From Gymnodinialimonas sp. 57CJ19 (GTDB lineage: Bacteria; Pseudomonadota; Alphaproteobacteria; Rhodobacterales; Rhodobacteraceae), in NCBI RefSeq assembly GCF_038396845.1, contig NZ_CP151587.1:1462001-1526000 (forward strand): a DNA stretch of 64,000 nucleotides. Direction: 5' to 3'. Below are positions 46,347 through 49,159 of this stretch, piece by piece; position 1 is the stretch's first letter; every line of letters begins with the position of its first letter. Made by a program: the position numbers and the translations under genes. The notes beneath the pieces were generated by a model that worked only from the letters and a program-made list of their open reading frames with translations, did not search any database and was not told where the DNA came from.

Positions 46347-46579
46347 GGCCCATCCCCCAAGATGATGTGTCACGCAACCTAGCACGACACACCATAGGGG
46401 CAAGCCCTTGACCCCCGCCCCGAATTTCCTAATGCCCGCGCAGTCTTAGCCTGCATACCCCACGCCCTTGCCCTGACGTGACGCCGCAACGGGGCTGCGA
46501 CGGCTAGTCTGTGCCGGACTTCTATGGCATAACGCTCGTCCTGAGCCTCCACACATACTTCGATCAAGGACTGACCCCC

Positions 46580-49159
46580 GTGAGCCGTTTTTCCGCCCCC
46601 ATCGCCGAACAAATCTGGGACATGAAATATCGTCTCAAAGAGGCGGATGGCACGCCCCTGGACACCAGCGTCGAAGATACTTGGCGCCGTATTGCTCGTG
46701 CGTTGGCCGAGGTCGAAGACGACAAACAGCAGTGGGAGGACAAGTTCTACACGGCGCTGGAGGACTTCAAATACCTGCCCGCAGGCCGCATCGTAGCAGG
46801 CGCGGGCACGGGCCGTAGCGTGACCTTGTTCAACTGTTTTGTCATGGGCACCGTGCCCGACAGCATGGGCGGTATCTTCGACATGCTGAAAGAGGCCGCG
46901 CTGACGATGCAGCAGGGCGGGGGGATTGGCTACGATTTCTCGACCATCCGGCCCAAGGGAGCTGCCGTGTCAGGTGTGGCGGCGGATGCCAGTGGGCCGC
47001 TCAGCTTCATGGATGTCTGGGACGCCATGTGCCGCACCATCATGTCTGCCGGGTCGCGCCGGGGCGCGATGATGGCCACGATGCGCTGCGATCACCCCGA
47101 TATCGCGGATTTCATCGCTGCCAAGCAAGACCCCGCCCGCCTGCGCATGTTCAACATGTCGGTGCTGGCAACCGATCCGTTCATGGAGGCTGTCAAAGCC
47201 GATGGCCCTTGGGATCTGGTCTTTGACGGCCGCGTCTACACCACCATTCAGGCCCGTGATCTGTGGAACAAGATCATGCGCGCCACCTATGATTACGCCG
47301 AACCCGGTGTGATTTTCATCGACCGGATCAACGCTGAAAACAACCTCAACTACGCCGAGACGATCTGCGCCACCAACCCCTGTGGCGAACAGCCGCTGCC
47401 GCCCTATGGCGCTTGTCTTCTGGGGTCTGTGAACCTTGCTCAGCTGGTGGAAAACCCCTTCACCGACGGCACGTTGAACGCCGAAAAATTGGCCGATCTG
47501 ACCGCCACCGCGATCCGCATGATGGATAACGTTGTCGATGCCTCTCGTTTCCCGTTGCAGGCTCAGGCCGCCGAGGCCGCCGCCAAGCGGCGCATCGGTT
47601 TGGGCGTCACCGGGCTGGCCGACGCCTTGGCCATGTGTGGCCTGCGCTACGGGTCCGAGGAGGCCGCCGCCAAGACAGGCGAATGGATGGCCCTGATCGC
47701 CAACGCGTCCTACCGGGCCTCGGCTGAACTGGCCGCTGAAAAAGGCGCATTTCCCCTATTTGATGCAGAGGAATACGCCAAGGCCCCGATGATCCGTCGC
47801 CTCGACGCCGATGTCCAAGCGCTGATCGCGCAGAACGGCCTTCGCAACGCCCTGCTGACCTCCATCGCGCCCACCGGGACGATCAGCCTGTTCGCGGGCA
47901 ATGTCTCATCAGGGATCGAGCCGATCTTCGCCAACGCCTACACCCGCAAAGTGCTGCAAGTGGATGGTTCCAGAACCGAAGAAGAAGTCGTTGATTTCGC
48001 CGTCGCCAAGTGGCGGGAGCTTCACGGCGACAGCCCGCTGCCCGACTACTTCGTGAACGCGCAAACCCTCGCGCCTCTGGACCATGTCCGCATGCAATCC
48101 GCCGCGCAGCCTTGGATCGACAGCTCCATCTCCAAGACCATCAACGTCCCCGCAGATATCAGCTTCGAGGCCTTCAAGGACGTCTACGCCGAGGCCTATG
48201 CCACCGGCTGCAAAGGCTGCACGACCTACCGTCCGAACGATGTGACGGGAAGTGTTTTGAGTGTGAATGAGGAGGCGCCGGTTGTAGCAACTGGAGAGGG
48301 GTACCGGGAGCGCATTCAGACGATTGTGGATGCAAACCAGACAAGCCTGCGTCAGGTCTCCTTAGACGCGGGGCTTAGCCATGGGTACCTCCATGGTGTC
48401 GTCAAGGACGGTAAAGAAGCGACTGTTGATCGATTGGTCAAAGTTGCGGATGTTCTGGGGGTCACCATCGCGGAGCTTACCACTGCCACGCCCGGCGGTA
48501 CGCCGGGCAGCGCCGTTCCGTCCCCCCGGGGCGGCGCGGCGCACCACCCCGACGGCCCGGCGCAGCCCTCTGTCGTGAGCGAGGATTCCGCCACTACACC
48601 GCTGGAAATGTCCTCGGGCACCAGCAGCGAAGTGGTCTATATGTCCGAACCGCTTCAGCGCCCGGGAGAGCTGGAGGGCAATACCTACAAGGTCAAATGG
48701 CCCGACAGCGAACACGCCATCTACATCACGATCAACGACATTGTTCTAAACGGCCACCGCCGCCCGTTCGAGGTCTTCATCAACTCCAAGAATATGGAGC
48801 ATTTTGCCTGGACCGTGGCGCTGACAAGGATGATCTCTGCCGTGTTCCGGCGCGGCGGCGATGTGTCTTTCGTGGTGGAAGAGCTTAAAGCCGTCTTCGA
48901 TCCGCGCGGCGGTGCTTGGATGCAGGGAAAATACGTCCCCTCCATCCTCGCGGCCATCGGCGGTGTGATCGAGAAACACATGATCGCCACGGGCTTTTTG
49001 GCAGGTGAAGGGATGGGCCTGAAGTCCGACCCGCAAGCCGATGTGGTCAACCTCAACCACCGCCCCGGTCCTGCGTGCCCCTCTTGCGGGCAGTTTGACC
49101 TGCGGATGATGGAAGGGTGCCTTACCTGTGGGTCTTGTGGCCACTCGAAATGCGGTTGA
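46580..49159 (+). CDS. nrdJ: Adenosylcobalamin-dependent (class II) ribonucleotide reductase
   Basis: An 859-residue enzyme that reduces ribonucleotides to deoxyribonucleotides with a B12-derived thiyl radical. The barrel has the first redox Cys in LFNCFVMG (about residues 90-97), the radical Cys and Glu in NPCGEQPLPPYG, the SIAPTGTISLFAGN loop and the second redox region CKGCTTYRPND (about 541-552). The C-terminus ends in a Cys cluster (CPSC, CLTCGSCGHSKCG) that re-reduces the active site. Between these, residues 575-637 resemble an XRE-type helix-turn-helix domain, followed by a Pro/Gly/Ser-rich linker; this makes the protein about 100 residues longer than I expect. GTG 46580 (AAGGA 10 nt upstream) gives the family start SRFSAPIAEQIW; the frame is open to 46511. 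No nrdR-type regulator is nearby. Confidence 0.93.
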   Translation: MSRFSAPIAEQIWDMKYRLKEADGTPLDTSVEDTWRRIARALAEVEDDKQQWEDKFYTALEDFKYLPAGRIVAGAGTGRSVTLFNCFVMGTVPDSMGGIFDMLKEAALTMQQGGGIGYDFSTIRPKGAAVSGVAADASGPLSFMDVWDAMCRTIMSAGSRRGAMMATMRCDHPDIADFIAAKQDPARLRMFNMSVLATDPFMEAVKADGPWDLVFDGRVYTTIQARDLWNKIMRATYDYAEPGVIFIDRINAENNLNYAETICATNPCGEQPLPPYGACLLGSVNLAQLVENPFTDGTLNAEKLADLTATAIRMMDNVVDASRFPLQAQAAEAAAKRRIGLGVTGLADALAMCGLRYGSEEAAAKTGEWMALIANASYRASAELAAEKGAFPLFDAEEYAKAPMIRRLDADVQALIAQNGLRNALLTSIAPTGTISLFAGNVSSGIEPIFANAYTRKVLQVDGSRTEEEVVDFAVAKWRELHGDSPLPDYFVNAQTLAPLDHVRMQSAAQPWIDSSISKTINVPADISFEAFKDVYAEAYATGCKGCTTYRPNDVTGSVLSVNEEAPVVATGEGYRERIQTIVDANQTSLRQVSLDAGLSHGYLHGVVKDGKEATVDRLVKVADVLGVTIAELTTATPGGTPGSAVPSPRGGAAHHPDGPAQPSVVSEDSATTPLEMSSGTSSEVVYMSEPLQRPGELEGNTYKVKWPDSEHAIYITINDIVLNGHRRPFEVFINSKNMEHFAWTVALTRMISAVFRRGGDVSFVVEELKAVFDPRGGAWMQGKYVPSILAAIGGVIEKHMIATGFLAGEGMGLKSDPQADVVNLNHRPGPACPSCGQFDLRMMEGCLTCGSCGHSKCG
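48302..48490 (+). other. In-frame XRE/Cro-type HTH-like insertion in nrdJ
   Basis: The 63 codons from YRERIQTIVDANQ to GVTIAELTTAT follow the pattern of an XRE/HTH_3 domain: helix 1 (ERIQTIVDANQ), helix 2 (LRQVSLDAG), recognition helix (LSHGYLHGVVKDG), then VDRLVKVADVLGVTIAEL as helices 4-5. By hand count 24 of its 63 codons end in A or T, against 2 of 20 in the stretch directly before (48122-48181); it uses TTA, CGA and ACT. This suggests a different origin from the rest of nrdJ. Confidence 0.65.
48490..48508. repeat. Perfect palindrome at the end of the nrdJ insertion
   Basis: GCCCGGCG (48490-48497), GTA, CGCCGGGC (48501-48508): an 8-bp perfect stem directly after the HTH-like segment, followed by a second short palindrome CCCCCCGGGG around 48522-48531. 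It is translated in frame (about PGGTPGS) and resembles an intergenic repeat more than coding sequence. Confidence 0.6.

Follow-up and report, generated by a model that had tools for sequence, protein, structure and literature searches.

Why would an enzyme that supplies DNA precursors carry a repressor-type DNA-binding domain? The question is raised by nrdJ of Gymnodinialimonas sp. 57CJ19, the gene for a class II (B12-dependent) ribonucleotide reductase (RNR), which lies in the 64,000-nucleotide stretch analysed here (the window; contig NZ_CP151587.1, positions 1,462,001 to 1,526,000, numbered from its first letter). In the linker between the catalytic barrel and the TSCPD domain of this reductase sits an in-frame helix-turn-helix (HTH) domain, hereafter the head. 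The initial annotation read it as a single inserted cassette; the insertion is real, but the window head is one of many alleles at the same site. We are nearly certain that the barrel–TSCPD linker of this accessory enzyme holds a hypervariable XRE/CI-type HTH cassette, with heads that are gained, lost and exchanged across species while the enzyme stays in the same locus.

A helix-turn-helix domain in the reductase linker

The segment running from EGYRERIQ to VTIAELTT (NrdJ residues 573-635, 48296-48484) lies where the initial annotation had placed it and is, on profile and model evidence, an XRE/Cro-C1-type HTH. Excised as 88 amino acids (aa), it matches Pfam HTH_3 with an E-value of 8.8e-6 and 26.1 bits against a curated cut-off of 23; inside the whole 882-aa open reading frame (ORF) the score is 21.5 bits, slightly under that cut-off. 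AlphaFold2 models the 64-aa domain as five helices with a mean pLDDT of 95.0. The 50 Foldseek matches listed for this model include C.AhdI, DdrO, SinR, ClgR, P22 c2, 434 Cro and the lambda repressor at a probability of 1.00, with TMq of about 0.8 to Cro/C1-type repressors; the best E-value is 1.4e-3 and none is below 1e-3. An XRE/Cro-fold HTH inserted in frame in a flexible linker had been proposed, with profile and structure searches as the checks that might refute it; profile, model and fold search agree, and both kinds of search return an HTH fold. The predicted fold of full-length NrdJ is poor (mean pLDDT 56.7) and was used solely to note that the HTH forms a confident block between low-confidence linkers.

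The gene is laid out as follows, with Pfam residues numbered from the 882-aa ORF that begins at 46511 and residues of the 859-aa protein counted from the GTG at 46580.

46580..49159, + strand: nrdJ, class II (B12-dependent) ribonucleotide reductase, 859 aa, GTG start (TIGR02504 NrdJ_Z match; start and frame from the sequence)
46832..48229, + strand: catalytic barrel, Ribonuc_red_lgC (PF02867) (Pfam, residues 108-573 of the 882-aa ORF)
48242..48277, + strand: 5′ arm, codons VTGSVLSVNEEA, DNA gtgacgggaagtgttttgagtgtgaatgaggaggcg, a variant of the arm enriched at the DNA level in HTH-bearing nrdJ
48296..48484, + strand: predicted XRE/Cro-C1-type HTH, type F, residues 573-635 (HTH_3, AlphaFold2, Foldseek)
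48485..48580 (end approximate), + strand: Gly/Pro linker encoded by a palindromic DNA element common to eight nrdJ genes with different HTHs
48490..48508, no strand: perfect palindrome GCCCGGCGGTACGCCGGGC (sequence scan)
48686..48982, + strand: TSCPD domain (PF12637) (Pfam, residues 726-824 of the 882-aa ORF)
49076..49156, + strand: C-terminal Cys-rich (zinc-finger/redox) tail, CPSCGQ...CGHSKCG (from the sequence; domain type from parts of PMC5704485 and section 2.4 of PMC9669993)

The protein scores 589 bits against TIGR02504 NrdJ_Z (cut-off 400), which places it among the class II RNRs, and its sequence contains the barrel, the NPCGE motif and the Cys-rich tail. Parts of PMC9669993 and PMC5704485 describe class II RNRs that share this type of barrel, the C-terminal alpha+beta domain and the Cys-rich tail; we infer that TSCPD corresponds to the IscU-like domain described in part of PMC9669993. 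The insert had been placed just before the Cys tail. It does occupy a linker upstream of the tail, but the TSCPD domain lies between the two.

Heads do not follow the descent of the enzyme

NrdJ genes were gathered from named genomes, from a family survey (394 genomes, about one per genus, 351 of which have the C-terminal part of the gene) and from survey genomes whose score hinted at an insert. After removal of copies, 176 distinct genes were left, at least three of them from other families, in a set enriched for inserts by its collection: 62 have an in-frame HTH at the same linker position, 2 a broken one and 112 none. Linker length, taken from CKGC to the TY motif, is strictly bimodal, with 112 genes at 76 aa or less and 62 at 117 aa or more. 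Every in-frame linker of the long class aligns as an HTH, and 59 of the 62 (48 of 50 plus 11 of 12) match HTH_3 at E 0.1 or better, many under the curated cut-off; L191, the twelfth of the second batch, has a weak HTH_31 match (E 0.007).

Because this set is insert-enriched, we take the frequency from the survey, in which at least 47 of 351 genomes have an HTH-bearing NrdJ (including the window, G019 and the frame-broken G021). The 58 survey loci fetched comprise 43 with an intact HTH, 12 without, 1 broken and 2 unreadable by the linker motif; the weak scorers G342 and G347 gave no match on fetching, and strong scorers, apart from 30 survey loci that all lack an insert and some read in other sets, were counted as insert-free unread. 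Heads occur in 3 of 13 genomes of the window's genus and in one of five species of another genus, the other four being judged from match coordinates. Of 385 genomes of the class, a few of which belong to the family, 137 gave a match, and the window's was the sole one to run through the HTH part; the rows of the other genomes cover the TSCPD side alone, so unrelated inserts may occur there. In a search of 41 genomes with NrdJ, a few relatives match through the insert and most match only on either side of it. The linkers give the reason: several relatives have an HTH at exactly the same place, but a different one.

We aligned 64 head sequences (61 single heads, two of L169 and that of L017) over about 62 columns. 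They form 21 clusters at an average distance of 0.62, of which clusters 3, 12, 6, 19 and 4 are here called types A, B, C, D and F. The window head, of type F, has kin in NrdJ of Roseovarius amoyensis and R. nubinhibens; of the other two carriers in its genus, one has a type B and one a type A head, and no head is present in its sister, whose barrel is 98% identical. One NrdJ (L169) has two heads in tandem in its linker, of types A and D. Across 1,891 non-independent pairs, HTH and barrel identity are almost uncorrelated, with a Spearman coefficient of 0.08 (p 6e-4). The six NrdJ pairs with barrels more than 91% identical have heads only 11-29% identical, and the range for the eleven pairs above 90% is 11-40%. 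On a barrel-only FastTree tree with many open forks, no fewer than 40 changes are needed to explain head presence (52 when labels are shuffled), and starred branches force at least 18. In loci longer than 12 kb, a homologue of the ORF next to nrdJ in the window (a DUF1489 protein, going by how its plasmid homologues are annotated) is present in 15 of 16 that bear an HTH and in 44 of 44 that do not. Enzyme and head have different histories, and head type does not follow descent.

Two carriers are broken. In L017 (G021) the head and the C-terminal domain are in different frames; the break falls in a palindromic stretch rich in C/G, in a three-contig genome, and is perhaps not an assembly error. 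In G212 (L168, L323) nrdJ is split inside the HTH, its halves lie about 35 kb apart and an ORF that by eye resembles a transposase adjoins the detached C-terminal half.

An accessory enzyme with headless homologues in phages and plasmids

The HTH-bearing NrdJ is an accessory, second class II reductase. The window's genome encodes another of 1225 aa (L359, G000:C1:2851000-2856500; PRK07562), and this larger enzyme was found in all 30 genomes tested, including both with a broken HTH-type nrdJ; 16 of those 30 (three less than 80% complete) have no match to window-type NrdJ in the survey.

Phages encode a homologous enzyme: 136 records match at E 1e-100 or better, with an identity of 60-80% in 31 and of less than 60% in the remaining 105. 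Of these records, 62 are from Pseudomonas phages; others infect Rhodobacter, Roseobacter, Dinoroseobacter, Ruegeria, Sulfitobacter and Roseovarius. Unlike the window NrdJ, the viral enzymes have no HTH in the linkers read: none was seen in 75 of 80 loci read by eye, the six longest linkers contain no Pfam domain, and the products of two annotated phage nrdJ genes, at 761 and 618 aa, leave no room for a head. Transfer of heads through phage nrdJ copies was rejected on these linkers and on the 5′ arm (described below), whose exact pattern occurs in none of the viral contigs. Plasmid carriage was rejected as well: of 42 matching plasmid records, those listed align over the barrel alone, and in the eight of the 42 that were read nrdJ encodes about 754-761 aa, again too short. 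One of the plasmids, pS26_106 of Phaeobacter piscinae (L376), is linear, 106 kb long and looks like a phage-plasmid, with a headless nrdJ beside genes for a protelomerase, a single-stranded-DNA-binding protein and a replicative helicase.

Homologous enzymes in phages of the same bacterial family would suit a protein–protein role, with the head as a dock for antirepressors of phages or for other XRE proteins, or as a sensor of phage NrdJ through mixed dimers. The fold search also lists PDB 7dlv, a dUTPase with the repressor Stl, and such contacts occur elsewhere; we nevertheless regard this role as highly improbable.

Shared DNA at the boundaries of the head

The head differs in codon use from the gene that holds it. 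In the window, 24 of its 63 third codon positions are A/T, exactly as first reported, against 124 of 554 in the upstream gene body; for the 20 codons before 48242 a recount gives 4 of 20 where 2 of 20 had been claimed. GC content at third codon positions is lower in the head than in its own barrel in 60 of 64 cases (means 0.61 and 0.84). Had all relatives carried the same segment with native codon use, the proposed insertion would have been refuted; they neither carry that segment nor use native codons in theirs, and the initial annotation was right to describe an evolutionarily mobile HTH, missing from most relatives and unlike its host gene in codon use.

On the 5′ side, codons 11-22 past CKGC show in carriers the signature GTG ACG GGG AGT GTG TTG AGT GTG GCG GAG GAG AAG. 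AGT, the codon of 3% of barrel serines, stands at codon 17 in 32 of 64 carriers and 17 of 112 other genes (p 1.4e-6, kinship ignored, as in all these enrichment tests); the arm is not in every carrier. On the 3′ side, the palindrome seen earlier after the window HTH is indeed perfect, with 8-bp arms, and its pattern is expected 0.03 times in 64 kb. It belongs to a Gly/Pro-coding element that directly follows the head in eight genes with seven head types, and whose core pattern, among 358 loci, occurs solely there, in six distinct genes. It has the look of a DNA feature, not of a protein motif, because it is read in different frames in different genes and because the C-termini of L017 and G212 are out of frame with the head.

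Such boundaries invite a second reading, a tolerated hot spot: the linker of an accessory enzyme would take up cassettes by recombination at common arms, the heads would do nothing for the enzyme and the bias towards HTHs would come from the transfer mechanism. The enriched 5′ arm and the differently framed 3′ element favour it, as do the two broken genes and the scattered presence of heads in the two genera. Against it, all the long in-frame linkers align as HTHs, and the heads are under apparent purifying selection, as detailed below. We hold this reading to be possible but somewhat unlikely.

Some other explanations of the insert or its arms were discarded: an intein, a dispersed repeat and an internal translation start. 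An intein does not fit about 63 HTH codons in a variable linker, for which a Pfam scan lists no splicing or endonuclease domain, and a dispersed repeat does not fit a 426-bp segment present once in its own genome. An internal translation start was dropped as a general explanation: a Shine–Dalgarno-like word is enriched in the arm (31 of 64 versus 16 of 112), and an in-frame ATG precedes the head in just 5 of 62 genes. Integron attC sites have the core motif RYYYAAC/GTTRRRY; a look by eye at the palindromic elements, short of a systematic search, showed none.

Three further features of NrdJ sequences were observed. In G020 and G040 (L030, L031) the NrdJ ORFs reach about 1170 aa; their match is interrupted at query residue 265-269, and the two parts are separated by about 1.1 kb of in-frame sequence, an insert that looks like an intein. 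A GEG repeat of gaaggc units, perhaps variable in length, directly follows the head of L163. A ‘GEN’/‘KNT’ coding motif (ggcgaaaatac-like DNA) recurs in linkers after or instead of the head in L144, L148, L163, L167, L188, L191 and L006.

Kinship with phage repressors

A protein search for homologues of the window's HTH region returned only the window's own protein, and a search scaled to free repressors gave no hit at E 0.001. When viral contigs were scanned, heads of types B, A, C and F recovered 8, 5, 2 and 1 loci (16 in total), with ORFs of 110-254 aa that are small and Xre-like or, in L298, L306 and L309, contain Peptidase_S24. Ten of these viral ORFs were scanned by Pfam: Peptidase_S24 is above the cut-off in three and below it in one, and L299 has no match. 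In the family's own genomes, searches with three types found free-standing relatives in ORFs of about 100-280 aa. Among annotated phages, 5 records match the window head, the best (42%) being an Agrobacterium phage, and 22 match a type C head, of which the 10 listed are named CI-like repressor.

These CI/LexA-type (S24) and small Xre repressors, from viral contigs and proviruses (L298-L313), have the fold of the NrdJ heads and, for the free relatives compared, 34-62% HTH identity to them; they are free proteins, three of the ten scanned with Peptidase_S24, whereas the head is part of an enzyme. In types A and C the NrdJ heads cluster beyond chance and not as one clade, a single clade not being rejected (p-AU 0.26 and 0.16). 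This pattern fits a pool of heads traded among nrdJ genes together with repeated capture.

A surrogate repressor as the favoured reading

We tentatively lean towards a phage-directed role, in which the reductase serves as a surrogate repressor, and favour it over both the tolerated hot spot and a generic DNA tether (below). A phage-related role is favoured because the gene is accessory and phages of the same family encode a homologue without a head in the linkers read. The reductase would hold a repressor-type DNA-binding head on a flexible tether and, if NrdJ is a dimer, would present two heads, like a phage repressor; section 2.4 of PMC9669993 describes class II enzymes with long C-termini as dimers, with two minor exceptions. 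The head would keep the operator preference of its source, a phage or provirus repressor, and the enzyme would sit on matching operators of incoming or resident temperate phages and dampen their lytic promoters. Heads would turn over and spread by horizontal transfer, because each would cover few phages and phages change their operators. The fuller version, with somewhat less confidence than the role itself, is that the accessory reductase may be a chassis for exchangeable phage-repressor heads and a population-variable surrogate repressor of temperate phages, whose heads would have been taken from phage repressors and would pass between species as cassettes, flanked by the common 5′ arm and, in some, by the palindromic 3′ element.

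Do the heads have the properties that a repressor would need? They do not look decayed: in all 20 same-type pairs compared, pN is below pS (0.14-0.27 versus 0.47-0.90). The barrel values of the pairs L048-L180 and L152-L178 look misaligned (pN 0.41 and 0.43) and were dropped, and their HTH values were counted. Similarity over the turn and recognition helix is 0.51 among type A NrdJ heads versus 0.39 in free relatives, and 0.57 versus 0.55 for type C.

Other results weigh against a surrogate repressor. The pN/pS pairs were picked for at least 62% identity, 13 of the 20 lie within type D, and part of the purifying selection may go back to a period when the heads belonged to repressor genes. The recognition helix of type A stands out less from the rest of the domain in NrdJ heads (0.51 versus 0.48 for helix 1) than in free relatives (0.39 versus 0.28). 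In type B it is less conserved among NrdJ heads, at 0.42, than helices 1 and 2 (0.55 and 0.58), and mismatches the two free relatives at hand (0.08). With a mean net charge of 0.83 versus 2.62, the NrdJ heads as a whole are less basic than the free set, although not significantly so within types A, C and F (p 0.26, 0.21 and 0.08), and type D heads are acidic (mean -2.8). A type A head has no match in 50,697 annotated phage records. Identities of 34-62% make the free relatives kin and not proven donors, too distant to point to a donor or an operator. Because the recognition-helix and charge results are mixed, some head types seem likely to bind DNA, whereas for others this is doubtful; overall, we judge it somewhat more probable than not that DNA binding has been retained.

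Retained DNA binding would also suit the generic tether, in which any XRE head holds the reductase at nucleoid, replication or repair sites for local dNTP supply. Heads would then be interchangeable and therefore diverse, in keeping with large head diversity within a single fold and with the two different heads of the L169 enzyme. Within types A and C, recognition helices resemble one another about as closely as those of free relatives do, which a tether would not need; acidic type D heads are odd for non-specific DNA binding, and the linkers read show no other DNA-binding domain in place of the HTH. We consider the tether unlikely.

Upstream DNA bears on two of the alternatives. A simple scan for palindromes with arms of at least 7 bp, common to the upstream regions of same-type carriers, found none for types A, B, C, D and F (139 of 176 genes have enough upstream sequence). 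The lack of a common operator-like palindrome is as expected of a tether, and speaks, as a weak test, against the autoregulation suggested by the initial annotation, whereby the head lets NrdJ repress its own gene. There are autoregulatory enzymes that act on their own genes by way of a DNA-binding domain, but each head swap would break such a circuit, and we rate autoregulation as the most improbable of the readings considered.

Discussion

The initial annotation stands in part: its inserted HTH is borne out, and it missed the hypervariability, the common DNA arms, the kinship with phage repressors and the status of this enzyme as an accessory, second class II reductase. What it described has partial parallels. 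The ATP-cone of RNRs is evolutionarily mobile and, like the NrdJ head, is an accessory regulatory domain gained and lost within one enzyme family; it binds nucleotides, whereas the NrdJ insert is an internal HTH whose type is exchanged between close relatives. HsdS target domains and polymorphic toxin tips likewise combine a conserved frame with an exchangeable recognition domain, and differ in that the frame of NrdJ is a metabolic enzyme. The term ‘helix-turn-helix’ was not found in the main texts of PMC9669993, PMC5704485 and PMC9531940, section 2.4 of the first names no such domain, and no title or abstract on an HTH in NrdJ turned up in full-text searches of open-access papers, which cover few subscription papers and no preprints. 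Accessory domains in reductases have precedents, as do HTH–enzyme fusions; head exchange at one site is, as far as could be found, without precedent.

Several HTH carriers are named isolates, which makes bench work feasible. Even if the heads are idle, they mark a defined spot in a reductase at which DNA-binding domains are swapped at a high rate, and the common DNA arms hint at a mechanism open to testing. DNA binding by the heads would mean that an enzyme of DNA-precursor synthesis is physically tied to chosen DNA sites, a reductase–regulator fusion of a kind not found described. And if phages drive the turnover, the linker of an accessory reductase would be a new place to look for immunity, within a metabolic enzyme.

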